From Amphiura filiformis (lineage: Eukaryota > Echinodermata > Ophiuroidea > Amphilepidida > Amphiuridae): DNA of 64,000 nucleotides. A model generated the notes under the pieces. That model was not told the origin of the DNA. It was given only the letters and a program-made list of their open reading frames with translations, and searched no databases. Positions within the stretch are counted from its first letter, which is position 1, and every line of letters begins with the position of its first letter. The stretch covers positions 22,368,893-22,432,892 of the forward strand of contig NC_092646.1 in NCBI RefSeq assembly GCF_039555335.1, given 5' to 3'. Positions 10,895 to 63,388 of the stretch are shown here, piece by piece. The position numbers and the translations under genes were made by a program.

Positions 10895-10904
10895 ATTCCC
10901 TTGC

Positions 10905-24028: not shown

Positions 24029-26010
24029 CTTACTTTCAGTTTCTTCTCCATTGTATCTTCTTTTCGCAGGAGATGTTTAACAAAAGCATAAGACCTTAGT
24101 CCCTGAAATTACCTAACTTATTTTTCCAGACTTTCAATGTCAATGTTGTAGCATAATTATCTGCTTTTTACAAGATATTTTTGATACAAAAGGGTTAGTA
24201 GTCATTGTCATCCATGTTCGTAACGTGACATCTTCTAGAATGATCTTAAGATCACTTTTACATGTTTAAATACTCTTGAATTATTTTTCAAGGTCACTGT
24301 TGCGCTTTTTAAATGGTATTTTAGATACAAAAGGGTGAATACTCATTGTCATCCATGGTCATAACGTGACATCTTCTAGAATAATGTCAAGTTCACTTTA
24401 ACTCTAAAATTACCTAAACTTATGTTCAGACTTACTTTCAAGGTCACTGTTAATGCAGCATATCTATCAACATGTATTTTACAAAATATTTTAGATACAA
24501 AAGGGTAAATACTCATTGGCATCCATGTTCATAACGTGACATCTTCTAGAATGATGTCAAGATCACATTTGCAATGCCCAAAATGATCTTGCAGGCTTAC
24601 TTTCAGGTCATTGTGTCCGCCATTGTAGAATATTATGCTTTTCACAATATACTACCAAGACAGACTTACTTTCAAGGTCACTGTTGCATGTAGCATATCT
24701 GTTTTTATAAGATATTCTAGATACAAAAGGGCGAATACATATTATCATCCATGTTCATTTACATGACATCTTCTAGAATAATCTTAAGATCACTTTTGCA
24801 TGTTTATTACTCTAGAATTACGTGTACTTATTTCTCAAGGTCATTGTTGTACCATATATCTGCCTTTTACAAGATATTTTAGATACAAAAGGGTTGATAC
24901 TCACATCCATGTTCATTTACATGACATCTTCTAGAATAATCTCGAGATCACTTTTGCATGTTTAATACTCTGCAATTACTTATACCTATTTCTCAAGGTC
25001 ATTGTAGCATATCTGTTTTTTACAAGATATTTTAGATACAAAAGGGTATTGTTATCCATGTCATGTTCATAACGTATGCATCTTCTAGAATGATATCAAG
25101 ATCACTTTTGTCTGTTTAATACTCTCAATGTTTTAAGGTCACTGTCGCGCTTATTACAAGATATATTAGATACAAAAGGGTAAATTCATTGTCATCAAAT
25201 GTTCATATACATGACATCTTCTAGAATAATCTCAAGATCACTTTTGTATGTTAATACTCTGGAATTAAAATACTTATTTTCAAGGTCGTGTTATGCTTTA
25301 CACACTATACTATCAAGAAAAACTTACTTTCAAGGTCACTGTTGTATTGTAGCATATCTGATTTTACAAGATATTATTTAGATACAAAAGGGTGAATACT
25401 CATTGTCATCCATGTTCATAACGTGACATCTTCTAGAATGATGTCAGGATCACATTTACATGTTTAATACCCACTACTGGCTGACAATACCCAAAATGAT
25501 CTTTCAGGCTTATTTTCAGGTTATTGTGTCCACCATTGTAGCATATTATGCTTTTCACAATATACTACTAAGACCAACTTACTTTCAAGGTCACTGTTGT
25601 TGCATGTCTGCTTTTACAAGATACTTTAGATAAAATAGTTTAGTTAATAGTTAGTTTAAATACTCATTGTCAACCATGGCATATTCTAGCATAATCTTAA
25701 AAACACTTTTGGCTGTTTAATATTCTGCATCTGAAATTACTTATTTTTCAAGGTCACTGTTGTAGCAGTAGCACATCTGCTTTTTACAAGATATTTTAGA
25801 TGCAAAAGGGTGCATACTTAATGTCATCCATGTTCATTTCCATGACATTGTCTAGAATGGTGTCACTACTGGCTGACATTATACCCAAAATGATCTTTCA
25901 GGTTTTTCTGTCCGACATGTTGTATTCTGCTTTTCACAAGATATCAGTGCGCGATTTGTAAAAGAGTAGGACCCTTCGTCATTCCTGTATACATACGTGG
26001 AATCTTCTAG
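24029..26010 (+). repeat. ~2 kb tandem array, 130-240 bp units carrying TCAAGGTCA and TTCTAGAA
   Basis: The landmark GATACAAAAGGG recurs at about 24183, 24325, 24491, 24719, 24882, 25035, 25166 and 25381, with decayed versions near 25620 and 25799. Spacing is therefore 130-240 bp. A typical unit reads, in order: TACAAGATATTTTAGATAC, AAAAGGGT, CATTGTCATCCATGTTCAT, GTGACATCTTCTAGAAT, GATCACTTTTGCATGTTTA, then TTTCAAGGTCACTGTTG. Length variation comes from internal deletions and extra half-units (some carry an added CCAAAATGATCTTTCAGG block). No frame is conserved, so it is a satellite-like array rather than a gene. Confidence 0.9.
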
Positions 26011-26212
26011 AATATTGCCATGATAATTTTCACGACATTTGGAGTAAAAAAATTCATGCAAATTGATTAATTCTTTAATGTTGAAAACTATTGCAATTAC
26101 AATCCAATACCATGGTATTTTTATTAACTAAGAATCATAGTTTATAATTATGACATCTTAGTCATTCTGGGCCATGTTTGCCACAATTAAGAATCATTGG
26201 TAATCATGATAG

Positions 26213-28964: not shown

Positions 28965-29672
28965 GAGGTGGTTTTGCGAGGAGGTTCGGAGTAAGGAAAG
29001 TCTACATTAGTCACAAGCCGCAATGGAGATAATTTTGCGAGGAAGTTCGGAACTAGGAAAGATGACATTAGATAAAAGCCATAGAGATATTTTGCAAAGA
29101 TTTTCGGGACTAGGAAATTCGACGTTTAGTCACATGTCATATAGATATTTTTTGCAAGGATATTCGGAGCAAGGAAAATTGACATTAATAAATCACAGGC
29201 CATACACAATATTGACATTAGATTCCATTCACATGGAGAGTTCTTGATAGGCCTTGATGTGACAAATATTAAGATACAAGTTCTTTGAACTCATGAAGTT
29301 CATTTATCGCCATCTTTCCTTAAACATTAATTTAGATTTTCCATGCTCCGAACCTCCTCGCAAAACCATCTCTATGGTCTGTGACTATCATGTCGACATT
29401 CCTTGCTCCGAACCTCCTCCCAAAAGATGTCTGTGACTATTGTTGACTTTCCTTACTCCGAACTTCCTCGCAAACATATTTGACTAATGTAGATTTTCCT
29501 TACTCCGAACCTCCTCTCAACATCATCTCTATGGTATATGACTAATGTTGACTTTCATTGCTCCGAACCTCCTCCCAAAAATATCTCTATGGTATGTGAT
29601 GTAAACTTTCCTTACTCCGAACCTTCATCCAAAAAGATCTCTATACTTTCCTTGCTCCAAACTCCTCGCAAA
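28965..29672. repeat. Head-to-head minisatellite of ~60-70 bp units
   Basis: The left block (28965-29190) holds four units of the form TTTTGCGAGGAGGTTCGGAG, TAAGGAAAGTCTACATTAGT, CACA...CCATAGAGATA. After a ~150 bp spacer, the right block (29338-29672) holds about seven units in reverse complement (CCTTGCTCCGAACCTCCTCG, CAAAACCATCTCTATGGT). Units vary in length and have many point changes. A stray unit of the left type lies at about 57125-57160. Confidence 0.85.
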
Positions 29673-31439
29673 CATATAATGTTATTGTTTTGCTTATTCT
29701 TTTGTTTTTACTTATTTGATTTGATTTGATTTGGTACACCATTGTAGTAACATATGCCTATCTGTCACATTTTATATCAATTGGGTATATAATTTCAACT
29801 CTCACCAAAGCTTTGAACTTCGGCGAGACAAATAAACACAATCTACCAAAACAAGTGTTTTATCTAAATATTCAACGAAGCAGCAAGAAAAATATATTCA
29901 AGAAGTGGACATCAAGATCCACAAGTAATACTTTAATACATACATTTTTGCTTTCCACACAAAAAATGACAACTTCAGGGAAGGAATTGGCAATATATTT
30001 ACACAAGCAATATAAAAAAGGGTGTTTAATCTAAGAAATCTTAGCGACCAACCAAGAGATATTATATATCACTATTTTCAAGTGATGACCAAAGCGTTAT
30101 CATATGGCCCCTAAGTGGCAATGGCACTAAATTTACCAGTGATACATGCATACACACGCACACACGTGAATCTCATTGTCAACAGATCCACGATATCCAG
30201 TAGCTTCGGACAGTTCTTTTTAAGTGGTCAATTTGTGCTTAGTTTATCCTCAATTAGAAGACGTCTTATTAAATTAACCACTGGGAGATTTGAACTATAT
30301 TATGTTTCGATGAGTAAAATTTTGTAATTATTTAAAGGATGGGGTTTTTGTGATATATGACAATGTAATAATGGAGAATTTATATGTTGTTGGGATGCAA
30401 CTATTGTTAACTTGTCAATTGTAAAATGGACTTATACAATGTAAATTCATTCCCACATACATAGTTTTCTTTTGAGAATACATTGTATATCACCATTCAT
30501 TGACTTAACTGTTATTGAAAGATGTTTTGATGTACATGTACACCCCAAAATAAATGTTTAGGTACACAAGATCACGATTGCAATGTGATGATTATGTCAT
30601 TTTTGGAAACTTCTAACATCTTATTGAAAAAAATCACACACAAAAAAAGAAAAGAAAAGAAATCACATTAATAGTAAATGAGACATAACGTATTTTGAAA
30701 TGAAGTTTGTTAATTTATGTCAACTATACGCACAGAGACAGTTAGGTTTGTATTTGGGCAATTCCAAACGCATCATTCCGCAACGCGAAGTTTGCAAATG
30801 AATTTCTTTTTTAATGTAGCAGCCAAACATGTAAGTGAATACCATAGTGGAAACTATTTTTGGCAAGTGAATGATTAAATCAGGAGAACATTTTCCAAGC
30901 CACCCTAATTTCCTAATTTGCATGTGCACCCTTGCCGTTGCCCATTTTAAGGTCTTGATCGCTATGTTATGTAACATTGCATGTATAATTGGCCATATGC
31001 AACTTCAAAGACACTAACCATTAATGTTATTTTTTTAATTATTATTCTGTTTATTTTGTCACATATGGAGCATTGTTTGAACCCTTTGGTTTCTTACAAG
31101 TATTGTAAATCATTTGCCATGTCTTATAAGACGTTGACAGTCGTATTTTAAGCCTTAAATTTTATCAATTATAACACTTGCAACAGAGCTACTACTTACA
31201 CCAAATCATATTGCCTTAAAACCAATCACATTCCTCTTGTATGTCAGCTTTATTTGTCTCAATATCCCTATAACTAATATAGGAAAGTTGTAGGTAATTT
31301 TATCAAATTCAAGTCATTAACAGCGCACTTCGTAATCTCAGTTAATTGCGTTTTAATCTTAAAAGACACAAGATACGCATGACGATCTAGTCCCATTTAT
31401 GCTTACACAATTAAACCAATTTATAGTCCAGTCATCAAG
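29673..31439. other. Intergenic
   Basis: A short TTTGATTTGATTTGAT run lies at about 29713-29731. The longest frame, 29726-30034, is unrecognised. An A-rich simple stretch lies at 30625-30665. No other structure was seen. Confidence 0.3.
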
Positions 31440-35258: not shown

Positions 35259-35315
35259 GATGGCAGGAGCCATATTTTTCCAGTGTTAGCCATTTAATTA
35301 ATTGCAGTGTATATC

Positions 35316-35566
35316 TTAACTCTCTCCACGCTGGTGTCGACTGCAGACGACAAGTTTGTTTTTTTTTAAATCAAAATTCAAAAAATTTCAGAATTGTAAG
35401 TTTTCATGACCATATTTGGAATCAGCTTGAAAAATGCATCAAAATGAGTACAAACAAGCCTAATATTGGGTCAGTGGTTCTTAGCTCTTGATATTTTGAC
35501 AAAAAATCTCAAAACTTGGACTTTTTATGTTGAGGCCTATGACATGGCTAGCACGCATAGCATTAA
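35316..35566 (+). mobile_element. TTAA-flanked family, copy 1
   Basis: Runs from TTAACTCTCTCCACG to GCACGCATAGCATTAA. It contains GTCGACTGCAGACGACAA, then CATATTTGGAATCAGCTTGA, AAATGAGTACAAACAAGCCT and AATATTGGGTCAGTGGTTCT, and ends near CTATGACATGGCTAGC. The same ordered blocks are found in five other copies. TTAA at both ends points to piggyBac-type mobilisation (inference). Confidence 0.75.
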
Positions 35567-36167
35567 TATCAATGCACTGACCTGATATAGGATATGTATA
35601 AAGGAACCCAATAATTGCATTTATATATATTTCCATAGGTCTTGCGGCTCTTCGAGTCACTTTTTCCTCCTCCCGAAAAAAATCATGCACATGGGGTTGA
35701 AAATTTACATACTATATCCTGCCCTTTGGTCCATTTTTATAGAACGCATACATTAATTTTGTGTGCCACCTTTACTTGTCTCAATATTTGAGCGTAAACA
35801 CCGCTAGGTCATATTCATGTTCATATTCATCTCCAACCCTTCATAGTGTCATTATCAATGTTGTTACATACTTTGCAAAACCAACAACTACTGTTCACCA
35901 TTTGTATACGCCTTACATGTCGATGCCAACCCGGGATGCCGACATTCAGACAACGACGACAATATGACAACTGGGTTGGGTTGGGTTTTGGTGGATGTTA
36001 ATGTCGGAAATGATGATAGTCAGTGATAGACGTGGTATGATCAGGTGGTGATATTTAGTGTAGTTTTTCAATTTTCTGTCATGCCCTATATAAATATCAT
36101 TGGATTTTTTAGACTATACCAAGTTCTTTGAAATTATACGTGGTCATAATTATTTGACTCCGCGTCA
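35567..36167. other. Intergenic
   Basis: No gene recognised. A CA/CG-rich frame at 35761-35967 lacks any domain. Confidence 0.3.
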
Positions 36168-36600: not shown

Positions 36601-37531
36601 ACATTAACTAAAATATTGACCATTTTTGTGATCAAACAGTTATAAAATGACGCATTTTTGATCAAAATGTTGACTCGTTCTTTTGTCGTGAAAAAAATCT
36701 AGTATATAGAAATCCTACAGTAAAAAGGCAGGTTTGCGGTGTCACGAGGCTTCTATTTTTACATATTACGTGAACGTCGACTTCCCTTTATAAAGAAAAT
36801 GATCTTTTCATGCAATTTTTTAATGAAGGAAGTTTTCATCACTCCTCGATATCATCATCATCATTATAACCAAGCGTATTATTTATTGTCATTCTCGCAC
36901 CATTTGATATTCTGGAATGATTAATCATCGTCAGTCGTTGAACACGTAAAGCTAACTGTACATCTATTCGATATAGCGTCCGCACAGTAGCTTCATGCAT
37001 CGTGCCCGGCTCATCAGCACAAATAAAACTTTCATAACATTGTCAATTTACTTGATAAGACAGAACAAAACGGCAAGTCATGCCCGCGACCGACACACGT
37101 GCCGTGTCCCTTGAAGCTAGCAACGTTTACTCATAGCCGGGTCTTGTTGACCAACGCGCGGAAGGTCGGGCCAATAATATGGCCAAATTATGCCAACTCA
37201 CGAAATACGGACTGGAAATAGCTTTTTTTTTACTTGATATCGGTATCTAGCCCGGTTTATAAAGTGGTTGTATGAGTGAAATGGCTTCTGCAAGTGAACC
37301 ATTATCGTTCAATGCTTTAGTAACATAGCTTTAATGAGAACTAGACGTGCATGGCTGGAAGGGATTTCGGCTTGGTAACCTTTTTGCTGGGAATTGAAAA
37401 AAGTTTTAAAGAAACACTGATAAAGAAGAGAGGTATTTATGTAGTATTAACAAAATACTGGTACTTTGCTTGGAGTTGCTTGGAGCAAGATTGGTTTTAT
37501 TTAAAAGTAGGATGAAGAGATTGGTAAGATT
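36601..37531. other. Intergenic
   Basis: No recognisable gene or repeat. The frame at 36739-36924 lacks any domain. Confidence 0.3.
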
Positions 37532-37783
37532 AGGCTGTTCCATTTAAAATCCACACTACCCCTGTGGAAGATTTTGGAAATATCTTCCACTGGGGAAGTA
37601 TATATGAATTTCAAATGGAATAATACATTAGCCAGCTCCATTTGAATTTCATACACCCTCTGAGAAAGAGGGAGGATGAGTTTCAAATGTGTTAATTCCA
37701 TTTGAAATTCATATACTCTCCCAGCAGAAGATCTTTCCAAAATCTTCCACAGGGGTAGTGTGAATTTTAAATGGAACAGCCCA
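37532..37783. mobile_element. Foldback family A, intermediate subtype
   Basis: Ends are AGGCTGTTCCATTTAAAATC and ATTTTAAATGGAACAGCC. Modules include CTACCCCTGTGGAAGATTTT, CATACACCCTCTGAGAAAGA and CAGCTCCATTTGAATTTCAT. The same arrangement occurs at 55547-55837 and, in part, at 62274-62470. Open frames across it (minus strand) are artefacts of the palindrome. Confidence 0.75.
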
Positions 37784-38093
37784 TTGAGGGTACGGTGGGT
37801 TTTGGTATATAGTGGGCAAATCGATGGTAGGACTTGTAAATTGATCAGGGTATTGTGATATATGTGTGTATGAATAATGCATAGCATTTTATAAAGGTCC
37901 AGTATATGACAACCTGTAGAATTTTGCACCATTAATAGTAAATAAGTTCAATTTGTGTCAAAATGGTGATACATGGAATAATGGGTAACTCTGTTCAAAA
38001 AGTGTTTTTAAAAACGTTCGAAATATGATCAACTAAAAAATCATGTTTAATAATTTCACTTTGTTCAAGTAAGTAACCTGAATCGGTGTCATT
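37784..38093. other. Spacer between two foldbacks
   Basis: AT-rich non-coding sequence of about 310 bp between two family A elements. Nothing else was recognised. Confidence 0.3.
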
Positions 38094-38374
38094 GGGCTAT
38101 TCCAGTTGAAATCCACACTACCCCTGTGGAAGATTTGGGAAATATCTTCCACAGAGGGAGTATGTTTTTCAGATGTAATAGGTCAGGGTTAATCAATTTG
38201 AAACCCATACTCCCGATGTATTATGGCTTATACGGTATATCTTCCACCACTGGAGTGAGTATTTGAAATGGAAGTTACCCAACTGTCTATTATATTCAAA
38301 ACTCATACTCCCTCTGTGGCAGACTTTATCTAAATCTTCCACAGGGGTAGTGTGGATTTTAAATGGAATAGCCC
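38094..38374. mobile_element. Foldback family A, long subtype
   Basis: The cleanest copy of the long type. It opens GGGCTATTCCAGTTGAAATC and closes ATTTTAAATGGAATAGCCC. ATT on both sides suggests a short target duplication (ATT-GGGC ... GCCC-ATT). Internal modules repeat the CTTCCACAG..GGGAGTATG theme in alternating orientation. It is collinear with 12422-12671. Confidence 0.8.
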
Positions 38375-38547
38375 ATTGCTCGCTTAAATGGCAGGAAAAA
38401 GAAGGATTTTAGCCTGCAATATAAATTTATCATCGTTTGTAGAAGAAAAAACAACGCGAATTGTGTTACTGAGAATACATGTTTTAATTTTGTATATACA
38501 TTCTGTCAAAGATAACTGACCATAACTTTACATAGTTTAAAAGTAAT

Positions 38548-38732: not shown

Positions 38733-39209
38733 CCAACGGTTGCTCATTTATAGTACATAAGAATTTGGTTCTGAGAAAACAAGAAAACATATCAACACAG
38801 TTTGTCGCTTCACATCGAGTTAAAACAAAAACAATGTCAATTTAAAAAGGCTGTTTTAATGTTTGTTTTGTCTATTAAAAATATCCAGAATAAAGAAACC
38901 AAAAAGTTTTTTTCACTCTTTACGTCTCCGACATTTTATTTTTCAAGAGTGACAAGTACTTTTAGTAAGAAACATAGCCTTTTTACTTTAACAATATAGT
39001 TAGCTTAATCACTAATAAAACAAACGATTTTTAAGTGTCATTAATGTAAGTTTATAAATCTTTATATCGAGCTAGCTTATAAAATGAAACTGTATTATTT
39101 TAAGGTTAAGAGCTTTTAATTGCGACTAGAAGATAACAACTTGGGGAGACATTATGCCAGTATGTAACAAGTTACCCAACTTACCTTTACAAATGAAAAG
39201 GAGTCTTAA
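38733..39209. other. Intergenic
   Basis: A lysine-rich 65-aa frame (38802-38999) is open but unrecognised. Otherwise AT-rich and featureless. Confidence 0.3.
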
Positions 39210-39457
39210 TTAATGCTCTACATGCTATCCATGCGCTTCAATGGAAAAATTTCAAGTTTTGAAATATTTTCTCAAAATATCAAGAGCTATCTTAAGAACT
39301 AATGAATCAATACTAGGCTTGTTTGTACTCATTTTAATGCAATTTTCATGCTGATTCCAGATAATGGTCATGAAAATTACATTTCTGAAATTTTTGAATT
39401 TTTAAACAAAAGTAGAAACTTGTCGTCTGCAGTCGATGCCCGCGTGAGGAGAGTTAA
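39210..39457 (-). mobile_element. TTAA-flanked family, copy 2
   Basis: A minus-strand copy. TTAATGCTCTACATGC lies at the left and GTGAGGAGAGTTAA at the right. It contains the reverse complements of the copy-1 blocks, including CAATACTAGGCTTGTTTGTA and CTTGTCGTCTGCAGTCGA. Perfect TTAA is present at both ends. Confidence 0.75.
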
Positions 39458-39959
39458 TTATGACACAGTAAATCATGTCTTTTTATCTTAACGCTGATGT
39501 CATACTCGAGTCGCCAATAAGAAGCGATATAAATCTGACAAATGAGCTGGATCGTTTAATGCTACTTTGAAAAGAACAATCAACGTCATTGGTCTAATTT
39601 GAATCGCTGAGTCAAACACGTTTAGAAATGCTATTATCATAAAAACTTTTGTCACGGATTATGTTACCATCGTCAATCCTGTTTAATTACCATATTATTT
39701 GTTATTCTTTCTTGATAATCGACATAAAACTTTTTGATGAAGATTTTCGCGTATCATAGGGTAAAGCAAACTATGATTTACAACTTCGAAATAAAAAGTC
39801 ATAGCAGTACAATAAGACAATACCCACTTCACTTGCAATGAACCCATTGTTGAACCAAACAGCAAGATTCCTGTTTTTATGTGTTACATGTCGCTGGAGT
39901 AACTCGTGTGCCTACAGTGGTCTTACAGAGTACCCCACGTGCTCCACCTAGTTTTGGCG

Positions 39960-41312: not shown

Positions 41313-42145
41313 CATTCTGACACATGACCCAACCAACCTTAAAGTAAACCACTTATATTAGATCAACTATATAGCAACGGTTGCCATTAGAGCACAGACG
41401 TGAGAAAGGATACACATTTTGCCGAAACGGCCATCTAATGACTGTAAGAAGTAATTTAAGTGATTTACGATATAAACACAATATTATCAGCTTTAAGTGT
41501 TTACTATAATTATTTTGTAAGTCTAGCATTAATTTACAAAAACAAACCTCACAATGATGTTGCCAATTTATATCAATAAAAACATGCAATTATTACATCA
41601 AAGATATCAATTTTATACTAATTTATTCATGACGACGTGTTGCATGATTTCGATCCATATTTTCTTACAAATTATCATACAAACATACCGACATAATTTT
41701 ACCAAGAAGTCAGATCTGGCTATAAACAGTACGGGAAACCTGTGTATTATTGTACTAGGGGTTAATGAGTACGGTAAGGCCTTGTGAAGAGGGTGGTAAC
41801 GTTTGGATATAGTCCCATGGTGGAAGCCCTTAGCAAGCCAACAGAGGGATAGAATAAACATAAAGCCTTTTCTATGTCTCCTAAATTTGAGACTACGAGC
41901 TGTAAGAAGTGAGCAGTGCGTTGAATATGAAATGATTAAGATATATATGAATGAAGAAATCATGTTATTTTGGTGTGTATGGTTAACGATAATAATATAT
42001 GACAAATTGGGTAGAATGTGTCTACTACTAATTTCAGAGTCGAGTGTGAATGAGCAGTATAGTATACAGAATATGAAATGATTGGTAATTTGTGACTAAA
42101 TGACGTTTTGAATAAATCTCATCTCGTTATTTACTTTAGCCTTCT
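41313..42145. other. Intergenic
   Basis: Several overlapping frames on both strands (41353-41589, 41554-41787, 41613-42005, 41803-42081) have no family motifs. No repeat was recognised. Confidence 0.3.
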
Positions 42146-42393
42146 TTAATGCTCTGTATGCTAGCCATAGGCTTCAACATAAAAAGTCCAACTTTTTAGA
42201 TATTTTCTCCAAATATCAAGAGCTATCTTAAGAAACACTGAACCAATACTAGGCTTGTTTGTACTCATTTTAATGCATTTGTCATGCTAATTCCAAATAT
42301 GGTAATGAAAATGTACAATTCTGAAATTTGTGAAAAATTTAAACAAAATGTGAAACTTGTCGTCTGCAGTCGACATCCACGTGGAGAGAGTAG
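42146..42393 (-). mobile_element. TTAA-flanked family, copy 3
   Basis: Begins TTAATGCTCTGTATGCTAGC. It contains CCAATACTAGGCTTGTTTGT, CATGCTAATTCCAAATATGG and CTTGTCGTCTGCAGTCGACA, and ends CACGTGGAGAGAGTAGG, where the right TTAA is mutated. Same family as 35316-35566. Confidence 0.7.
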
Positions 42394-42813: not shown

Positions 42814-45800
42814 CAACTATTACATCTACTGCTGATAGCATACTACTTCATCAACTATCTACTGCTGATAGCATACTACTTCATCAACTATCTACCGCTG
42901 ATAGCATACTACTTCATCAACTATCTACTGCTGATAGCACACTACTTCATCCACTATCTACTGCTGATAGCATACTACTTCATCAACCATCTACAGCTGA
43001 TAGCATACTACTTCATCAACTAGCTACTGCTGATAGCATACTACTTCATCATCTATCTACTGCTGATAGCATACTACTTCATCAACTATCTACTGCTGAT
43101 AGCACACTACTTCATCAACTATCTACTGCTGATAGCATACTACTTCATCAACTATCTACTGCTGATAGCATACTACTTTATCAACTATCTACTGCTGATA
43201 GCATACTACTTCATCAACTATCTACTGCTGATAGCACACTACTTCATCAACTATCTACCGCTGATAGCATACTACTTCATCAACTATCTACTGCTGATAG
43301 CATACTACTTCATCAACTATCTTCATCAACTATCTACCGCTGATAGCATACTACTTCATCCACTATCTACTGCTGATAGCATACTACTTCATCAACCATC
43401 TACAGCTGATAGCATACTACTTCATCAACTATCTACTGCTGATAGCACACTACTTCATCAACTATCTACTGCTGATAGCATACTACTTCATCAACTATCT
43501 ACTGCTGATAGCACACTACTTCATCAACTATCTACTGCTGATAGCATACTACTTCATCAACTATCTACTGCTGATAGCATACTACTTTATCAACTATCTA
43601 CTGCTGATAGCATACTACTTCATCAACTATCTACTACTGATAGCATACTACTTCATCAACTATCTACTGCTGATAGCATACTACTTCATCAACTATCTAC
43701 TGCTGATAGCATACTACTTCATCAACTATCTACTGCTGATAGCATACTACTTCATCAACTATCTACTGCTGATAGCATACTACTTCATCAACTATCTACT
43801 GCTGATAGCACACTACTTCATCAACTATCTACTGCTGATAGCACACTACTTCATCAACTATCTACTGCTGATAGCATACTACTTCATCAACTATCTACTG
43901 CTGATAGCATACTACTTCATCAACTATCTACTGCTGATAGCATACTACTTTATCAACTATCTACTGCTGATAGCATACTACTTCATCAACTATCTACTGC
44001 TGATAGCATACTACTTCATCAACTATCTACTGCTGATAGCATACTACTTCATCAACTATCTACTGCTGATAGCATACTACTTCATCAACTATCTACTGCT
44101 GATAGCATACTACTTCATCAACTATCTACTGCTGATAGCACACTACTTCATCCACTATCTACTGCTGATAGCATACTACTTCATCAACTATCTACTGCTG
44201 ATAGCATACTACTTCATCAACTATCTACTGCTGATAGCATACTACTTCATCAACTATCTACTGCTGATAGCACACTACTTCATCAACTATCTACTGCTGA
44301 TAGCATACTACTTCATCAACTATCTACTGCTGATAGCATACTACTTCATCAACTATCTACTGCTGATAGCATACTACTTCATCAACTATCTACTGCTGAT
44401 AGCATACTACTTCATCAACTATCTACTGCTGATAGCATACTACTTCATCAACTATCTACTGCTGATAGCATACTACTTCATCCACTATCTACTGCTGATA
44501 GCATACTACTTCATCAACCATCTACTGCTGATAGCATACTACTTCATCAACTATCTACTGCTGATAGCATACTACTTAATCAACTATCTACTGCTGATAG
44601 CACACTACTTCATCAACTATCTACTGCTGATAGCATACTACTTCATCAACTATCTACTGCTGATAGCATACTACTTAATCAACTATCTACCACTGATAGC
44701 ATACTACTTCGTCAACTATCTACTGCTGATATAGCATACTACTTAATCAACTATCTACTGCTGATAGCATACTACTTCATCAACTATCTACTGCTGATAG
44801 CACACTACTTCATCAACTATCTACTGCTGATAGCTACTACTTCATCCACTATCTACTGCTGATAGCATACTACTTCATCAACTATCTACTGCTGATAGCA
44901 CACTACTTCATCCACTATCTACTGCTGATAGCATACTACTTCATCAACTATCTACTGCTGATAGCACACTACTTCATCGACTATCTACTGCTGATAGCAC
45001 ACTACTTCATCAACTATCTACTGCTGATAGCACACTACTTCATCCACTATCTACTGCTGATAGCATACTACTTCATCCACTATCTACTGCTGATAGCATA
45101 CTACTTCATCCACTATCTACTGCTGATAGCACACTACTTCATCCACTATCTACTGCTGATAGCATACTACTTCATCAACTATCTACTACTGATAGCATAC
45201 TACTTCATCCACTATCTACTGCTGATAGCATACTACTTCATCAACTATCTACTGCTGATAGCACACTACTTCATCAACTATCTACTGCTGATAGCTACTA
45301 CTTCATCCACTATCTACTGCTGATAGCATACTACTTCATCAACTATCTACTGCTGATAGCACACTACTTCATCCACTATCTACTGCTGATAGCATACTAC
45401 TTCATCAACTATCTACTGCTGATAGCACACTACTTCATCGACTATCTACTGCTGATAGCACACTACTTCATCAACTATCTACTGCTGATAGCACACTACT
45501 TCATCCACTATCTACTGCTGATAGCATACTACTTCATCCACTATCTACTGCTGATAGCATACTACTTCATCCACTATCTACTGCTGATAGCACACTACTT
45601 CATCCACTATCTACTGCTGATAGCATACTACTTCATCAACTATCTACTGCTGATAGCATACTACTTCATCAACTATCTACTGCTGATAGCATACTACTTC
45701 ATCAACTATCTACTACTGATAGCATACTACTTCATCCACTATCTACTGCTGATAGCATACTACTTCATCAACTATCTACTGCTGATAGCATACTACTTCA

Positions 45801-45922
45801 TCAACTATCTACTGCTGATAGCACACTACTTCATCCACTATCTACTACTGATAGCATACTACTTCATCCACTATCTACTGCTGATAGCATACTACTTCAT
45901 CAACCATCTACAGCGGATAGTA
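42814..45922 (+). repeat. 33 bp satellite array, about 94 units
   Basis: Tandem copies of a 33 bp unit: CTATCTACTGCTGATAGCAT followed by ACTACTTCATCAA. Variants are few: GCATAC or GCACAC, CATCAAC or CATCCAC, and occasional CTTTATC and CTTAATC. Unit length is a multiple of three, so an 11-residue repeat (INYLLLIAYYF) appears as an open frame without being a gene. Each unit holds a CTATC/GATAG hairpin with two WGATAR-type sites. Segments of about 461 bp (14 units) are duplicated near 44831 and 45292. The array edges decay at 42814 and 45905-45920. Confidence 0.97.
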
Positions 45923-47014
45923 TTTTTTTGATACTACAAAATGTAATTAAATAGGGTTTTCTTGCAAGAAAATTCACGTAACTCTTTGCAGTTATGCAGT
46001 AATATGGATTAATATCTACTTAATTTTCCAAATAATCAAATATATAGGATGTTTCGATAAATTAACAAATAAATTATAAAACAGCCCCACGTTAGAATAT
46101 CTTAAAATGAAACACCTATAGCTCCGCGCAAACATCAAGTTGAAATAAAAGTATATTGGCATGCTGTTCTACAAAGGTGAATAGGATTTAGTAGCAGTAA
46201 GTTGAACATTTGAGTAATGATGGTCAATGCCTATTATTAGAAAGTTAACTAATACTAGGAACATAATCCTCCTTCATATATGAGTTACGTGCAAAAATCA
46301 GAAGTTTACAAAAATCATAACAAATTTAAAACTTTGCAACATTTTACAATTATATTAGCATATTTAGAATCTCCGTTAAACACGCATTCAAATGAGTACA
46401 AACAAGCCTGGTATTGGTACAGCGGTTCTTTAGATATAAAAATACCAAGTTGATGAAAGTTTATGACATAAACAACATAGCGCTTACTATATAATGACGC
46501 AGTTGCGCGGAAAGCCTTACTGTCTAAACATATATGGGCCATGGACACGTCGCTATGTACTTGAACTCAGTTTGAAGGCAATATTGCGTGCGGTCAAATG
46601 CCTATTGATTCCCTCATGATATAAGATACACCACATAGACAGAAGAACTTGAAGCAATACGATGACAACAGTGAGGCCTCTAGTTAGAGAAAACAACTCG
46701 TTTTGTGAGAAAAGAATAAAGCAAATGGCCGCGGAACTAGCGATTGCCTTAGCTGAATGTGTTGTCGGTTATTGCTATCTACGGTAGATAGTAGCATACG
46801 GTTACATGACTGCACTGCATGAGAAGGCTAGTCTATGTATGGTGTGTTCTTGTATTTGTATTATGAAGTTATAACTTGTTCGTTAGCTGTTTGTTTGTAT
46901 GTTTTGTTGTCTATCTAGCTTTTTGTTTATGTGTTTGTTTGTTTGTTAGTTGGGTGGTGTGTGTTTGTTTTATTTGTTTTGTTTGTTTGGCTTGTTTCCT
47001 TTTCTTATTTTCCT

Positions 47015-47053
<39 letters not shown>

Positions 47054-47186
47054 GCCTTTCTGTCTTTCTTTCTTACTTTCATTTCTCTCTTTCTTTACTT
47101 ACGTCTTTCTTCGCCTTTCGTTCTGTCTCTCTTTCTTTATGTTTCTTTCCTTTCTATCTGTCTATCTGTATGTCTGTCTGTGTGTG

Positions 47187-47239
<53 letters not shown>

Positions 47240-49009
47240 TTCTTTCAATATTTCTATATTTCATTTTTTTCAATCAATATTTCTTTCTCTGTTTGTTTGA
47301 TTGATTGATTCATTGATTCATTGATTGATTGATTCATTGATTGATTGATTCATTCATTCATTTCTTTCTGTGCTTGTTGCGGACACGATTCACACGATTC
47401 TGTTGTTATTAGGCCTACCGATGTTTTACTCTATTTTATCCCCTTCAAATATCAGGGTTTGTTTGGTCTAAAATAATCCAAACATTGATTAAGCATGTGT
47501 GGGCCGAAAATCAAACTTAACATTTGCTGAAGCATTTTGTTAAAATACTTATATAATATCAAAATCATCATGAAGCAAAACAATAAATATTATGACATTT
47601 TGTTTAAAATGTGAAAAAGAAATCCCCGCAAAACTTCATGTAAGCAAAACAATCCATATAAATAAATACTTCATAAATATTACTGCCCTAAATATGTCCT
47701 CGTCCTATTTATATACACAGACGCGTTCAAAACCAATAATTGACCAATTATCTTTATTTCCACTCACGTAGTAAAAGAGCAACTATTTAGCATATATTTC
47801 CCTTGCAAATGAGTATGTTTTCAACAACATAGCATACTAAATGTCACATTTGAAATTTAAATCGCCGTAGCAGTGTAAATGCATCGATACACGGAACGCA
47901 CCCGGCATATAGAGAAACTGAGCTAGTAAGCGATCTGTGTGTGCTGACCCCGCTTTCGGACTCTGTACTTATCATGCAGTCATCGCAGTATCATGGTAGA
48001 TTCTGCTATAGGTAACAAAAATCAAGAATTACTTCACTAATTAATACTAGGCTTATTGGTACTTATGTTTATATCATTTTTGTTATTAATCAATTATTAT
48101 TTTTTGAAATATTTTTTGACTTGGGGATAGCGATCGACTTTTGTGGGTTAAACGAAATGACCACATGTCAAATGCGCATAACGCACCGTTAAATCAGGGT
48201 AGGCGACCATTATTAACTAGCCTTTTACGGGGACGAATTATCCCTGGTTAAGGGTCTACACCACTTGCTGTATAAACATAGCAAATCATGTAATAAAAGT
48301 GGCCAGGGGCTTCTAACGATTAAAGCCAGATTGGCAATCGATTGTGATTGGATTATAGGGCCACCTTTGGAGTATTCAGATTGCTAGTTTACCGCTATAA
48401 TATGTCACATTTTTGTTTTACTTATTAATAGATTGTAAGATGTATATTCAGACCATATTAAGGAGTATTTTGGTGGACGTGACATGTGTGAAACCTTCGT
48501 TGTCATGGTGACGCATTAGGTACAGATCATTTTGGTTTGAATCTAGTATTTCTGTTACATTAAAATGGTTTGGTAACTACAGTTTTTCGGCAATATCATG
48601 CAAATTTTAGTTTAAAAAGTCCCAATAAGTAAATTAAGGCGCGACATAATTGACATCTATATTCTAATATTAATAATTTATAATTCCAAAGCAATTAGTC
48701 CGCTATAATATCTTGTCTGCTGGCTATATGCTTTGGTTTCGCCAAAGAAAATATTTCATTCTTCTCTTCATTAGCATTATACTCTCTTCATTAGCATTAT
48801 TTAAATGACATGTTCAAGTAGTTAGTCCACTAATTGTATTGCGACAATATATACGCTACATTTAGATGTCTCAGTCATGTAAGAAGTTATGTAAGAAGCT
48901 TAAAAACTTGAATTTGAAGTAATGTATGCATGCAGTTAACCAATATACAATGTTTAACATAGTATGTTGTAGGCTGCATGTATAATTCTGGATAGATGAT
49001 GATCAGCAG
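45923..49009. other. Spacer between the two satellite arrays
   Basis: AT-rich and without a gene. It contains fragments of the TTAA family near 46390-46440 and 48030-48075, one isolated satellite-like hairpin (CTATCTACGGTAGATAG at about 46777), the microsatellites described separately, and a 20 bp direct duplication (CTCTTCATTAGCATTAT) at about 48761-48801. Confidence 0.5.
46995..47370 (+). repeat. Compound microsatellite TTTC / TCTG / ATTGATTC
   Basis: (TTTC)n with interruptions lies at about 47011-47150, (TCTG)n at about 47160-47240, and (ATTGATTC)-like repeats at about 47296-47362. Three long frames across it (46876-47308) are leucine/serine/phenylalanine-rich translations of the repeats, not proteins. 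Confidence 0.95.
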
Positions 49010-50500
49010 AAGATGACAATAATTTGTTATCAGCAGTAGATAGTCTATAACGTTATGTTTTATCAGCAGTAGATAGTGGATGAAGTATAGTGTGCTATCA
49101 CATTATATGTAAGTGATGAAATAATGTGCTATCAGCAGTAGATGGTTGATGAAGTAGAGTGCTGTCAGATAGCGGATGAAGTAGTATGCTATCAGCAGTA
49201 GATAGTTATAGTAGTGTGCTATATTAGCAGTATTGATGAAGTATATTATGATATCAGTGGTAGATACGTGATGAAGTAGTTTGCTATCAGCAGTAGATAG
49301 TTGATGAAGTTGTATGCTATCAGCGGTATATAATTGATGAAGTAGTATGTTATCAGCAGTAAATATTTGATGAAGTAGTGTGCTATCAGCAGTAGATAGT
49401 TGATGAAGTAGCGTGCTATCAGCAGTAGATAGTAGATGAAGTAGTATGCTATATAGTTGATGAAGTAGTATATGCTATCAGCAGTAGATAGTTGATGAAA
49501 TAGTATGCTATCAGCAGTAGATAGTTGATGAAGTAGTGTGCTATCAGCAGTAGATAGTTGATGAAGTAGTGTGCTATCAGCAGTAGATAGTTGATGAAGT
49601 AGTGTGCTATCAGCAGTAGATAGTTGATGAAGTAGTGTGCTATCAGCAGTAGATAGTTGATGAAGTAGTGTGTTATCAGCAGTAGATAGTTGATGTTATC
49701 AGCAGTAGATAGTTGATGAAGTAGTGTGCTATCAGCAGTAGATAGTTGATGAAGTAATATGTTATCAGCAGTAGATAGTTGATGAAGTAGTGTGTTATCA
49801 GCAGTAGATAGGTGATGAAGTAGTTTGCCATCAGCAGTAGATAGTTGATGAGTAATATGTTATCAGCAGTAGATAGTTGATGACGTAATATGCTATCAGC
49901 AGTAGATAGTAGACGAAGTAGTATGCTCAGTAGTAGATAGTTGATAAAGTAGCATGCTATCAGCAGTAGATAGTTGATGAAGTAGTATGCTATCAGCAGT
50001 AGATAGTGGATGAAGTATAGTATGCTATCAGCAGTAGATAGTTGATGAAGTAGTGTGCTATCAGCAGTAGATTGATGAATTAATGTGTTATCAGCAGCAG
50101 GTAGTTAATGAATAGTGTGATATATTGATGAAGAAGTGTGCTATTAACATTAAATTGTTGATGGTGTAGTGTGATGAAGTAATGTGCTTTCAGCCGCAGG
50201 TGGTAGGTGACATGGCAAAATGTGCCATCAGCAGTAGGCCTAGATAGTTGACGAAATAGTGTGCTATCAGTTGTTGGTAAATCAATGTGTTATCAGCTGT
50301 AGAAAGTTGATGAATTAGTGTGCTGTCAGCAGGAAATAGTTAATGAAGTAGCGAAGTATCAGCAATAGATGATTGATGAAGTATTTTGCTATCAGCAGTA
50401 GATAGTTTATGAAGTAGTATGTTATCAGCGGTTGATAACTGATGAAGTAGTGCTCTATCAGTTCTAGATATTTGATGGAGCAGTGTAATATCAGCAGTTT
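49010..50500 (-). repeat. 33 bp satellite array in opposite orientation, about 40 units
   Basis: The same unit as at 42814-45922 but reversed: GCTATCAGCAGTAGATAGTT, GATGAAGTAGTGT. The centre (about 49370-49830) is regular. Both edges are eroded, with truncated or mutated units (for example 49010-49350 and 50080-50500). Together with the first array it forms a large inverted repeat about 7.7 kb across with a 3.1 kb spacer. Confidence 0.95.
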
Positions 50501-52359: not shown

Positions 52360-53437
52360 AAAAGGATTGAGCTTATCCATAAGCTGTGTTTCAATTGGTC
52401 ACTAAGATTAATAATATGGTGTAATTAACCAATCACAGATGCTGTAAGAAAGATATTAGTTTGAATGGGTTAAGTCATATTTAATTTAGTGTTTTCATTG
52501 CGTAATTTCCGATTTTCAAATTTATATACCGTATAGGCCAGGCGGCGGATGACATGATCGAGCCGGCAACTTGTGAAACCGCCCGGCCGTATATGGCATT
52601 TTCCAATATACTCAGTTAGTTTTGTGGGGTTCATTATCGAACCCCAACGGTTTTAGCTTGTATTTATATTATTTATCAACATAGGCCTATTTGTTTGTGA
52701 TATTTCAAGCGTTTTAAAATTTCAAAATAATCCCATTCAATTACACGGTTGACGATGAAAATGTACTGAATTTAGAGAATGCAATTCGGCCACCACCTGG
52801 TATAGGCCTCTAAATAGACAAATAAAGATTTTGATAAAATGCATATTGAAATTGTTTTCTGACATTTTTATTAAGAAAAAAATTGTATTATATGGATTGG
52901 TATCCATCAGTTTCCAATGATTATGGACATGACTGCCACATCAAAATGAAAATAATATAGAAGCTACTTTTTTATTGATGAATATTATAAAAGGTCATAA
53001 AACTATAAATCCTGGGCATTTCAAGAAGATCCAATGTTACATTTTGAAGAAGCAGGCTTATCAATAAAACTAATGTGTACTAATCATTTTTATACAGCCT
53101 ACAATGTGTGCCTTATGTATTTACATGACTTTATCAAAATATTCAAAAACATGTCACTCCAAGCACAATACTTGGTGTTATTACCCCATAATAAACAGAA
53201 AGAAATGAATTGCATTTGTGCATGAAATAATAACAAATATGTTTTCCAAATAAATACTAGAAGAAATTAATAACATCATAAATAAATATTTGAAACGAAA
53301 AAAAATCACTTTAAAGTATCCTTGGCAAAAATATATTATTTATCACATAATTATGTCCATGCTATTATTTCATTATCTCATAATCGTTTTAAACAAATGA
53401 AAACAGACAAAGATATTTGCAATACTTTTTACCATGT
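52360..53437. other. Intergenic
   Basis: Contains a modest GC-rich hairpin at about 52530-52596 (CCGTATAGGCCAGGCGGCGG with ACCGCCCGGCCGTATATGGC). Otherwise AT-rich, no gene. Confidence 0.35.
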
Positions 53438-53678
53438 TTACCCTCTCCATCCGGGTGTCGACTGCAGACGACAATTTTCAAATTTTGTTTAAAAATTTGA
53501 AAAATTTCAGAATTGTACATTTTTATGCCCATATTTGGAATCAGCATGAAAAATGCATTAAAATGAGTACAAACAAGCCCAGTATTGGTTTAGTGGTTCT
53601 TGAGATAGCTCTAGATATTTTGAGAAAATGTCTCAAAACTTTAACTGTTGGAGCCTATAAGCAGCACGCAAAGCTTAA
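53438..53678 (+). mobile_element. TTAA-flanked family, copy 4
   Basis: Contains CCCTCTCCATCCGGGTGTCG, ACTGCAGACGACAATTTTCA, GGAATCAGCATGAAAAATGC, AAATGAGTACAAACAAGCCC and AGTATTGGTTTAGTGGTTCT, and ends at CACGCAAAGCTTAA. The left TTAA is degraded (TTTA). Confidence 0.75.
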
Positions 53679-55546
53679 GTTTTAATTCAGTGGTCACACT
53701 TTTTGTGCCAAATCGTGTAAAGAAAATATTTGATCAATACCCATGGCAAAAATAAGAACAATATTTGAGTGACCATCTGCGCCGATATACTCGTGTCCAC
53801 TTCTGTGGTCATTTCCCTGGTCCGGTTTCCCTTAGGGACTCATCGGACATGGAGGACACCCAATAACACGGAAGCCTGACTCATGTCCATTGCATCCGAT
53901 TGGTGCTCTGTTATAGCGAGTAACTGGACAAAGCTTCGCTCGTCTGTCTGGACCTTGGTATAACTGCATAGGCCGATATACCAGAGTAGTCTTCAATATT
54001 CAATTTTTTGGTGGAATGAAATATTGATATTTTGCCAAATGCTAATTCATGTGGAATTAAAATTAAACATACCTGGATTGAATTTAAACATATCAGTTTA
54101 TTCTTTTACAAAATAATACTAAATTTACAGATGTTTACAGTGTACTACTATATACTTGATTTAAAAAAGTCGGTATAAGTGTAAATATTCTACCAAATTT
54201 GGTTTCCAACTGAAGGCATCATAACTAAAAGATGTTAAGTCACATTGAGTGCATTTCGAGATAAATGGCAAAGAAGGTTGTTATGTCCGGAAAATTATAT
54301 ATATTATAGGAAACTACATAATACTAGTACTCGATTCCAAAAATTCGGTAGTGTAAAGATTATACCAAATTTGGTTTCTAAAATACGGGTTACCGTTATA
54401 TCACATTGAATACACATCGAGATAAATGACAAAGAAGCTTGTTATATCCATGTAGTTTCAATGCAAGGAGGTGGTTTTGTCCATGCAATTTTAATACTCT
54501 ACAACAGTACTTCACTATGAAATTTGCACATAGGGTGTAGATAGAACCCTTGTAGCAGAAACTGACACTAACTTATTTCCTGATTTTGTGATTTAAACCC
54601 CTGCTAGTTCTGAGGTCCCCAATTGGTAGTGCAAATGGTTTCAATTGTGATGTGTTATAGTATGCTTATTATCTATACATGGGCATCAAGCCTGAGGTGA
54701 ACATGGAGACGTGATTCCCCCCCCCCCCCCCACCCCAACTTTTTTGGGAAATCTGTCATTTTTTTCAGCCAGTTTTTGACAATTTAAGCAATGTTCCCTC
54801 TCCCCACTTTTCTAGACGAACTGACGCCGATGCATTATGAATTTCTGTTTTGCTAATAGTTGTTTTAGATATAAATGCCAAGTTGCTAATATAACATATA
54901 AAAGGTTAGAAAGGTCCTTTTGACCCAAGTATATGAACTATGTTTTACCATAGTAGACCTATAATAGTATAATACTCCATACAATTTCATGTAGAAAATA
55001 GCTTAGTAATAGTGTTGTAAAAGGGTCCAAAAGTGTCAAAAGTACAACTATTACCACTTCCACAGTATTCATCTTTTGCACATGTATCAATAATTAATTA
55101 ATCTATGGACTAGCAGTAACGAAATAATGATGTCAACATTTCAAGTTTCAATACAGTAACTATTAAGAATGAACATCGAACTATAAATAAGATTACTTGT
55201 CTATGTTATATCGTAAAATATATAAACTAACCGTAAAGGAATTATATCAATGGAGAAGATTGGAATATAGAGGCAATATGCTACCAAAAAAGGCCTGGAT
55301 GTTAATGATATATAGTGATGATAATCCCCTACAGATGAAGTCATTACTAATCCCATAGGGCTATCGTGTTAATGTACATTTCAATAGAAAAGATTGCTAA
55401 GAAGAACGTGTGAGTGAATATCAATGAGGGGGTATGATTAATTGTAGAATGGACAAAATTGCCAGCCCAAATTAGCCATTATCTGGCGTGTTTGTAGACG
55501 GAAATATTACGAGGGTTGTAGAGTGCAAGTATACCCCATCTGTAAT
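53679..55546. other. Intergenic
   Basis: The phrase GCCGATATAC occurs at about 53782 and 53972, bracketing a GC-richer patch of unknown nature. A diverged direct repeat of ~125-165 bp (TCCAAAAATTCGG, TACCAAATTTGGTTTC, CATCGAGATAAATG) lies at about 54120-54450. A C homopolymer run lies near 54720. Confidence 0.35.
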
Positions 55547-55837
55547 GGGCTATTCCGTCTAAAATCCACACTCCCCCTGTAGAAGATTTTGGAAATAGCT
55601 TCCACAAGGGGAATATGAATTTTGAATGGAATTAACACATTAGGGAGCTCCATTTGAATTTCATACACCCTCTGAGAAAGATTTCCCCATGAATTTTCCA
55701 CAGAGGGAGGACAAGTTTCAAATGGAGCTGCCTAGGCCCCTAATGTGTTCATTCCATTTAAAATTCATACTCCCCCTGTAGAAAATATTTCCAAAATCTT
55801 CAATAGGGGTAGTGTGGATTTTAAATGAAATAGCCCC
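55547..55837. mobile_element. Foldback family A, intermediate subtype
   Basis: Opens GGGCTATTCCGTCTAAAATC and closes GGATTTTAAATGAAATAGCCCC. Contains CTCCCCCTGTAGAAGATTTT, TTCATACACCCTCTGAGAAA and GGAGCTGCCTA modules, in the order seen at 37532-37783. Short minus-strand frames here derive from the palindrome. Confidence 0.75.
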
Positions 55838-55845
55838 ATAGCTGC

Positions 55846-56111: not shown

Positions 56112-57062
56112 GCCATGCAGGTGGGGTGTGCATGGGGTGCGTTTGTAGGGTGGGTGGGGTGCGTAGGAAGCTTTGGGGTGTCGGATTAGAGGAGGGTGCA
56201 TGTGGGAGAGGAGAGGTACCTTTTGTAGGGTGCGTTTGTAGGGTGGGTGGGGTGCGTAGGAAGCTTTGGGATGTCGGATTAGAGGAGGGTGCATGTGGGA
56301 GAGGAGAGGTACCTTTTGTAGGGTGCGTTTGTAGGGTGGGTGGGGTGGGTAGGAAGCTTTGGGGTGTCGGATTAGAGGAGGGTGCATGTGGGAGAGGAGA
56401 GGTACCTTTTGTAGGGTGCGTTTGTAGGGTGGGTGGGGTGCGTAGGAAGCCTTGGGGTGTCGGATTAGAGGAGGGTCCATGTGGGAGAGGAGAGGTACCT
56501 TTTGTAGGGTGCGTTTGTAGGGTGGGTGGGGTGCGTAGGAAGCTTTGGGGTGTCGGATTAGAGGAGGGTGCATGTGGGAGAGGAGAGGTACCTTTTGTAG
56601 GGTGCGTTTGTAGGGTGGTGGGGTGCGTAGGAAGCTGTGGGGTGTCGGATTAGAGGAGGGTGCATGTGGGAGAGGAGAGGTACTTTTGTAGGGTGCGTTT
56701 GTAGGGTGGGTGGAGGGGTGCGTAGGAAGCTTTGGGTGTCGGATTAGAGGAGGGTGCATGTGGGAGAGGAGAGGTACCTTTTGTAGGGTGCGTTTGTAGG
56801 GTGGGTGGGGTGCGTAGGAAGCTTTGGGTGTCGGATTAGAGGAGGGTGCATGTGGGAGAGGAGAGGTACCTTTTGTAGGGTGCGTTTGTAGGGTGGGTGG
56901 GGTGCGTAGGAAGCTTTGGGGTGTCGGATTAGAGGAGGGTGCATGTGGGAGAGGAGAGATACCTTTTGTAGGGTGCGTTTGTAGGGTGGGTGGGGTGCGT
57001 ATGAAGCTTTGGGGTGTCGGATTAGAGGAGGGTGCATGTGGGAGAGGAGAGGTACCTTTGTA
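56112..57062 (+). repeat. 93 bp G-rich minisatellite, ten copies
   Basis: The period is 93 bp (for example GGTACC at 56215, 56308 and 56401). A unit reads GGGTGCGTTTGTAGGGTGGG, TGGGGTGCGTAGGAAGCTTT, GGGGTGTCGGATTAGAGGAG, GGTGCATGTGGGAGAGGAGA, GGTACCTTTTGTA. 93 is divisible by three and the unit has almost no stop codons, so long proline- or glycine-rich frames open on both strands. Indels in several copies switch the frame, which argues against a protein. GGG-loop-GGGTGGGTGGGG in every unit could form a G-quadruplex. Confidence 0.95.
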
Positions 57063-60901: not shown

Positions 60902-61881
60902 GAAATTTAAACCTACGCATTATAATCATAATCATAAAAGTGTGTTGACTTAACACAAAAAATAATAATATAATGATAAATTAAGTCAATATCCCTAGTA
61001 ATCTTCGATAGTATCTATTTCTTCCTATAAATCGCGAAGTGACAAAAAGGGGAAACTCTTAAATACGGCGCTTTAAGGTGTCATCTTGACTTATATCAAC
61101 ATTTTGTGCAGCTCCTTGTTATCTTAAAATAAATTTCAAGTATCATCATAAACATTTTAGTTTAAGAAAGACCCTAGAACTCATCAAATTGTCTTAACCA
61201 CTGTCTATGGCGTTGGTTTAGGCAAACACTAATAGTACGTAGTCAAATCGATCACCACAACGCTTAATACTTTTATAACGAAAACTGTCTCTTAAAAAAT
61301 ATATATTTTCTTTAAAATATTGTTAATAGTTTAACCTTATCTCAACAACCACTGAACCAATACTAGGCATGTTTGTACTCATTTAAATGCATTTATCACG
61401 TAGATTTCAAATTTTGACATGACTGATTATAATTTTAGAATGTTTGAAAATCATTATTTCGACTGTCTTGTAAAGTTGACATCTATGCGGAAAGTTGGGG
61501 TTAAAAAACGGCAAGTATAGCGCTGAGTCCTGAGTTCTATCTTGCTCTGACCTTATAAGTGTTTAGTTTGTTGTCCACTTCTCAGTGCTAACAGCAAACT
61601 TGTCAAGTGTGAAAAAACAATAATTTCGAGCAAAATCACCTCCTTGTAACGTTTGCAAAAGTGACACAAACAGTGGCAAGATTGGGTACTAGAAAATACA
61701 CACAAAAAGGGAAAATATTTGTGGTGTGGATTTGATCGAGTACTTTGCCGTTTGTTCTGCGTTATTTGGTTTTGTCATTATGATGATGACTGAGATCGAC
61801 GAGTGTATGCTATATAAGAGGGTCTCGTGTTCAGCTTTATCGTTGCGATGTGTTAACCTTACTTGGTTAAGTTTCGATATT
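60902..61881. other. Intergenic, with a decayed TTAA-family copy
   Basis: Positions 61336-61505 retain the CCAATACTAGGCATGTTTGT and CATTTAAATGCATTTATCAC blocks of the TTAA family in minus orientation, but the ends are eroded. No gene recognised. Confidence 0.5.
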
Positions 61882-62172: not shown

Positions 62173-62273
62173 GGAGACAAACATAGTCCATGGAAATTGC
62201 AACTTTCTCGGTTATTTTTTCTGTTTTTTTAGGAAACAAAAGATGATTTATATGTGTCCGTGGCCAACACAAT

Positions 62274-62470
62274 GGGCTGTTCTATTTAAAAGCCACAATA
62301 CCCCTGTGGAATATTTTGGAAATATCTCTCACAGGGGAGTATGGATTTCAAATGGAATGAACATATTAGGCAGCTCCTATTGCATTTTATACACCCTCTG
62401 AGAAAGATTCAACCGGAATCTTCAACGGAGAGAGGGTGAGTTTCAAATGGAGCTGCCTAATGTGTATCAA
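62274..62470. mobile_element. Foldback family A, truncated intermediate subtype
   Basis: Left end GGGCTGTTCTATTTAAAAGC and left modules (ATACCCCTGTGGAATATTTT, ACACCCTCTGAGAAAGATTC) match 37532-37783, but the element stops after GGAGCTGCCTAATGTGTA without the right terminal module. Confidence 0.65.
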
Positions 62471-63159
62471 ATAGTATAACAAAAAATTAAAGACCAATTC
62501 TGAAATTTGCTGAACCATATTATCATGAAATTCAATTTAAAAACACATGTGACAACAACCCATAAAAATGGCGAACATGAAGGCGTAAAGTTACATTTCA
62601 ACTAACCATAGGTTAACGATACATTTATTATTATTCCAAGTAATGTTCTAAAGAATTATTTATTTTAATATTATTAATTTTCACCTTGAGATCGCCGTTT
62701 GAGACATGCTACCGCAAAACCAGGATAAAGTCGGGGGAAATTTCATTATAGCATTTGCCGCTATTATCACTGATAGAAATATTAGCGACTTTGTCAAGGT
62801 TTTGTATTGATAGAACTATAGCGACTTTCTCAAGGATCTGTATCAGCAAGTCTTGCATAGTCCTTTAAACAGAGACTCACGAGGACTTATAACAATCTAG
62901 AATCTTTATCTCTTTAGCGCAAAAGTACATAACACCAGCATACAACAAAGAGACGAGAGTCCTCACATGTCAAACTCTATACCTTACTTCCGCTTGACAA
63001 AGTGTCTGCGATTGGTGTCTGCCACAAAAATCCGGCTATGTTTTCGGAAGACCCGTATCAGAGATACCGAGAAAAGATAAATTCGGACGAGGCGGTGCTC
63101 TGCAATTAAGATGATCAGGATGTATATAATGTGGTTGATGTTCTACGGGAATATCGTTC
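62471..63159. other. Intergenic
   Basis: Non-coding AT-rich sequence. A short direct echo (TAGCGACTTT.TCAAGG) lies near 62784 and 62820. Confidence 0.3.
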
Positions 63160-63388
63160 TTAATATGCTCTGTGTGTTAGCCATAGGCTTCAACATAAAA
63201 ATTCCAAGTGAGGAGATATTTTCTCAAAATATCAAGAGCTATCTCTAGAACCACTGAACCAATACTAGGCTTGTTGGTACTCATTTTGATGCATTTTTCA
63301 TGTTGATTCCAAATATGTTCATGAAAATTTACAATTCTGAAATTTGTGATTTTTTTGTACAAAAAATTGCGTGGATGGAGAGAGTTAA
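63160..63388 (-). mobile_element. TTAA-flanked family, copy 6
   Basis: TTAATATGCTCTGTGTGTTA at the left and GTGGATGGAGAGAGTTAA at the right give perfect TTAA at both ends. It retains CCAATACTAGGCTTGTTGGT and CATGTTGATTCCAAATATGT but lacks the CTGCAGTCGAC block that other copies have near this end. Confidence 0.75.

Follow-up and report, generated by a model that had tools for sequence, protein, structure and literature searches.

Two arrays of a dispersed 33-bp satellite in opposite orientation around a 3-kb spacer in the brittle star Amphiura filiformis

The window, i.e., the whole 64-kb stretch of Amphiura filiformis DNA that was analyzed, carries a reverse-transcriptase fragment (319-864), a single-exon rhodopsin-type GPCR ORF (2904-3962), a C1q-domain ORF (6263-7033), and a tRNA gene (10822-10895) that scores above the Rfam gathering threshold and is the sole Rfam match in the window. 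The GPCR ORF retrieved 14 proteins, among them an Amphiura filiformis receptor (E 3e-55; 40% identity across 90%) and, as a weak match, an insect protein (E 2.5e-4). Two interspersed repeats recur along the DNA: a self-reverse-complementary family of ~290 bp, MITE-like by shape, and a family of ~260 bp, one copy of which (42137-42392) adjoins the left side of the first satellite array described below. A smaller pair of inverted tandem arrays, built like the 33-bp satellite locus and with a unit of ~58 bp, is found at 28971-29186 (4 copies) and 29328-29674 (7 copies), with ~140 bp between them; their inverted matches of more than 20 nt are 77-93% complementary. The repeats and the satellite locus are laid out as follows, in window coordinates.

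12411-12682, 37520-37786, 38082-38378, 55543-55843, 62270-62465 and others, no strand assigned: ~290-bp palindromic repeats
35297-35567, 39202-39476, 42137-42392, 53434-53692, 63152-63366, no strand assigned: full copies of the ~260-bp interspersed repeat, 78-86% identity
46291-46436 (in the spacer) and 61295-61448, no strand assigned: partial copies of the ~260-bp interspersed repeat
42824-45923, + strand: left array of the 33-bp satellite, 94 units (first and last partial), by wrap-around alignment of one consensus unit
44750-45648, + strand: recent duplication of a segment of the left array, offset by 461 bp, with 438 bp matching exactly
45924-49011, no strand assigned: spacer of 3,088 bp with the partial interspersed repeat at 46291-46436 and microsatellites at ~46888-47362
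46775-46791, no strand assigned: perfect 8-bp hairpin, not satellite on present evidence
49012-50498, - strand: right array, the 33-bp satellite inverted, 46 units, by wrap-around alignment of one consensus unit
49471-49695, - strand: uniform center of the right array; its complementarity to parts of the left array is 93-98%

Both arrays are built from the consensus unit TATCTACTGCTGATAGCAYACTACTTCATCAAC, 33 bp, repeated head to tail. Tandem Repeats Finder places the left array at 42824-45920 (period 33, 93.5 copies, 94% matches, score 5444) and the right array at 49028-50498 (period 33, 45.3 copies, 75% matches, score 1336), and the two consensus units that it reports are reverse complements of each other. 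The first-pass annotation had described two arrays of one 33-bp satellite in opposite orientation around a spacer of ~3 kb; with 94 units on the + strand, 46 on the - strand, and 3,088 bp between them, this description holds. At 94 and 46 consecutive copies, both arrays lie well above the five that serve as the lower limit for satellite DNA in a study of Tribolium madens (PMC13081366, from the part of the text available).

The left array is nearly uniform: the mean pairwise identity of its units is 0.959, 43 of 93 units (the partial last unit excluded) match the consensus without indels, and the mean number of substitutions per unit is 0.72 (n = 93). The segment 44750-45187 occurs again at 45211-45648, and the non-consensus units repeat at a lag of 14 units with 11 matches, a figure equaled at any lag from 1 to 45 in none of 2000 permutations. 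The right array has a mean pairwise unit identity of 0.813 overall, which breaks down into 0.906 in the core (units 13-37), 0.674 at the outer edge, and 0.774 at the inner edge; substitutions per unit average 1.76 in the core (n = 25), 6.31 at the outer edge (n = 13), and 4.38 at the inner edge (n = 8). The right array is uniform in its center only and decayed at both edges, so that the earlier observation of a more eroded right array stands in a refined form. Unequal exchange or slippage makes satellite arrays grow and homogenizes them, sparing the units at the edges, which decay. Because the pattern of uniformity and edge decay fits unequal exchange, the left array appears to have expanded recently and the right array to be the older one, as satellite theory would have it; a young array would here neighbor an old one of the same satellite, and the pair would display center-uniform, edge-decayed turnover.

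Two + strand frames are open over long stretches of the left array, up to 612 codons, only because the unit is 33 bp long and free of stops in those frames. Translated in one of them, the array matched 20 proteins (E 3e-21 to 9e-4), and in the second frame 10 proteins, with 3 common to both. At least 27 distinct ORFs outside the window, among the best-sharing 7997 and 7989 candidates scored, encode the same unit, and the 33-bp repeat is therefore a dispersed satellite family. The 20 external ORFs analyzed by script contain 2-8 STADSTLLHQL-like peptides each, usually spaced by 11 residues, and second-frame peptides are present in 10 of these ORFs as well; the remaining 7 of the 27 were judged by eye. 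Since frames are mixed within one predicted ORF, the family is a DNA repeat and not a protein, and the left array was rejected as protein-coding on the same ground and because its indels measure 1, 2, 5, and 8 bases.

In tblastn, all 20 scripted external ORFs match the arrays of the window, and the matches that extend past the array bounds are alignments overrunning the edges; once the arrays are masked, none of the 20 matches the window at E<=0.05. Relaxing the threshold to E<=1 returns 13 weak rows, 4 of them from a single external ORF, P0027, and 3 of these 4 fall on one palindromic repeat family: part of P0027 weakly resembles three ~290-bp palindromic copies (E 0.14-0.83). The non-repeat parts of the 20 ORFs are short and show no match to one another at E<=0.01. 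The unit patterns were not found in viral contigs or prokaryote genomes; a left-array piece of 1,001 bases had no match in plasmids, the right array had none in phages, and of 6 stretches with the peptide patterns in viral contigs none was confirmed. An animal repeat would hardly be expected in any of these collections. The passages on satellite, tandem, and inverted repeats in the available parts of ophiuroid genome papers describe no such repeat, which may be published elsewhere. Elsewhere in the 64 kb there are no further clear units: only two more peaks reach score 17 (the maxima of three shuffles were 14, 15, and 18), and both of them sit within one duplicated segment near 36.3-36.6 kb.

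Three stop-free frames outside the low-complexity sequence lie within or enter the spacer, and none has a Pfam match at E<=0.01, a search that genes split into exons could escape; one of these frames gave a sub-threshold value of 0.085. The data are compatible with the initial view that the spacer holds no gene. The same view pointed to an isolated unit-like hairpin in the spacer. The hairpin exists, at 46775-46791, and its likeness to the unit is no better than chance: it scores 14, and the best scores obtained by shuffling the spacer 200 times have the same median. The spacer's best match to the unit, with score 17 at 48877-48936, adjoins the right array and is equaled in 17 of 200 shuffles. 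Hairpins with 8-bp arms are common in the window, as it contains 20 perfect ones with loops of 0-3, whereas 10 shuffles average 8.2. Growth of the arrays from a palindromic seed, proposed in the first-pass annotation as one route to the arrangement, is unsupported, both because the similarity of this hairpin to the unit is at chance level and because the stem inside the unit shows neither covariation nor slower evolution.

How the two arrays relate can be judged from their variants and flanks. No fixed differences were found between the left and right arrays; three exact unit types are common to both, and the right array also has variants of its own. In either array the site that varies most often is position 18, which is T in 71 and C in 23 of the 94 left units; in the 46 right units it is C in 23, T in 19, and A in 4. 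For 21 of the 46 right units the most similar unit belongs to the right array itself and for 8 to the left array, with ties in the other 17. The arrays share the order of their position-18 variants only at chance level: the longest common run is 7, a length reached in 273 of 300 permutations. The flanks of the arrays are likewise unrelated: all 10 comparisons fall at or below the 95% level of shuffles (e.g., the two outer flanks score 24 vs a 95% level of 26), and inverted words between flanks are equaled by 192, 228, 172, and 299 of 300 nulls. Among 95 unit-like peptides from 20 external ORFs, the residue specified by C18 occurs 69 times vs 12 for isoleucine (T18), so T18 looks derived; it is less frequent in the external peptides (12/95) than in the right array (19/46; Fisher P 0.0004, counting units as independent and with external contigs that may belong to other species). 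This enrichment hints at a closer kinship between the two arrays than between either of them and the remaining family.

The locus probably represents a single dispersed family of 33-bp satellites present as two arrays, which lie in opposite orientation 3 kb apart and turn over separately; the account calls for no function. Both arrays may derive from one local locus that was split and inverted, or locally re-inserted, well before the present left array arose, and would since have turned over separately via unequal exchange; two independent seedings would be expected to leave a nearly identical outcome. Support for this reading comes from a shared consensus and common variants yet no common flanks or block order, from the contrast between a uniform left array and a right array decayed at its edges, from the 461-bp block duplication, from the presence of the unit on other contigs, and from the T18 enrichment. 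Several points count against it: the nearest-neighbor result for the right units is mixed, arrays scattered at random would seldom lie only 3 kb from each other, and a second inverted pair is present in the window.

Among described arrangements, the macro-dyad of Tribolium comes nearest. In T. madens satellites, inverted subarrays form macro-dyad symmetries that, according to the available part of the study, are documented only in Tribolium (PMC13081366). As there, kilobase arrays of one satellite lie here in opposite orientation and the unit contains short inverted repeats (PMC13081366), and the inverted subarrays, of 3.1 kb and 1.5 kb, are of macro-dyad size. The Tribolium subarrays, as described in the same partial text, meet at conserved inversion sites within multi-megabase, broadly symmetric (peri)centromeric blocks (PMC13081366). 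In the window, by contrast, there is no direct junction of subarrays at an inversion site: a young array is parted from a decayed one by 3,088 bp of unrelated spacer with no clear units. Taken alone, the locus is ordinary satellite biology, a new case of a known satellite organization.

That the window contains another inverted pair gives a hint of some mechanism producing pairs of this kind. We consider it unlikely that a recurrent process, through either template switching where short palindromes occur or elements of foldback-like type, lays down inverted array pairs and seeds dispersed satellites; on this account, to which we give the same limited credence, the 64 kb would hold two instances of it, one in the 33-bp pair and one in the 58-bp pair, which is unrelated. 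Should inverted tandem pairs prove common in the genome, macro-dyad organization would extend beyond Tribolium, and the link between foldback-like elements and new satellites would become testable in a marine invertebrate.

A separate and rather improbable proposal is that the arrays are the long terminal inverted repeats of a foldback-type transposon, with the spacer as its middle, or that an element of Helentron type lies at each array and has it as its central repeat. Tetris of Drosophila virilis is a foldback transposon with an 8-10 bp target-site duplication, and sea-urchin and other foldbacks are also named in the available part of that report (PMC4079207). The window resembles Tetris in having long inverted arms of tandem repeats around a non-coding middle and a link to satellite arrays (PMC4079207); the dispersal of the 33-bp unit across external contigs and the second inverted pair would also suit such an element. 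Unlike Tetris, the arrays share no terminal domain, and their terminal and inner flanks are unshared in any orientation. As a candidate target-site duplication there is a 7-bp word, the longest common to the surroundings just beyond the outer edges, which counts in favor of the proposal but is not convincing, appearing in 13% of simulations (P 0.13; the edges of the right array are decayed). In the Pacific oyster, satellite-like arrays are carried by Cg_HINE, which are Helentron non-autonomous elements (PMC7492417); like the present arrays, those of the oyster are short, belong to a single family, and are scattered across the genome of a marine invertebrate (PMC7492417). Cg_HINE elements are described, in the part of the report at hand, with shared 50-100 bp flanking modules, subterminal inverted repeats, a palindrome, and monomers of 100-500 bp (PMC7492417), whereas the arrays in the window have no shared flanks and no inverted words above chance. 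Nor do the non-repeat parts of the external ORFs, short as they are, match one another or the window.

The first-pass annotation also offered the inversion of part of an ancestral array. Were the spacer and a portion of one original array to have been inverted recently, this would account for the same unit in opposite orientation 3 kb away and for the lack of fixed differences, and would predict a sharp, uniform outer edge where the right array is most decayed; it would also preserve an order of position-18 variants that is shared at chance only. Given these two observations, the nearest-unit result, and the unrelated flanks, we judge the recent form of this idea to be quite improbable; an old inversion may have occurred and falls within the favored reading of separately evolving arrays.

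The arrangement has long complementary stretches. Of 1148 inverted pairs, the 25 longest span 225-246 nt at 93-98% complementarity, with 98% reached over 225 nt; the longest perfectly complementary stretch is 103 nt. A large secondary structure, as envisaged in the first-pass annotation, is possible on paper, and a transcript might form long dsRNA and give rise to small RNAs, or a DNA hairpin might organize chromatin. RNA of the reverse-complement unit dimer is predicted to fold more stably than any of its 200 shuffles (z -3.0), but the + strand dimer is unremarkable as RNA (z -1.8), as are both strands as DNA (z -0.85 and -1.6). The CTATC/GATAG stem is intact in 181 cells of the right array vs a permuted mean of 179.4 (227 of 1000 permutations reach 181) and shows no constraint, its variability of 0.096 resembling the 0.094 of other positions (position 18 excluded). 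The arms diverge, the right one decaying. A function for the mirror arrangement, which the sequence does not support, would be a decidedly remote prospect.

Although repeats are often misassembled, an assembly artefact (a foldback read or a misjoined inverted copy) is scarcely credible, given the strong difference between the arms and the lack of mirror symmetry in the flanks; only 3 unit types are exactly shared and the right array has variants of its own, the window contains no ambiguous bases, and its GPCR protein is placed on a contig of 60,072,021 bases.

Two further tandem arrays occur in the window. A diverged array of ~158-bp units spans 24055-26033 and keeps one orientation throughout among the rows listed. 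At 56135-57059, ten 93-bp units form a G-rich array with 97% matches, a GC content of 0.55 in a region of 35% GC, and open frames on both strands.
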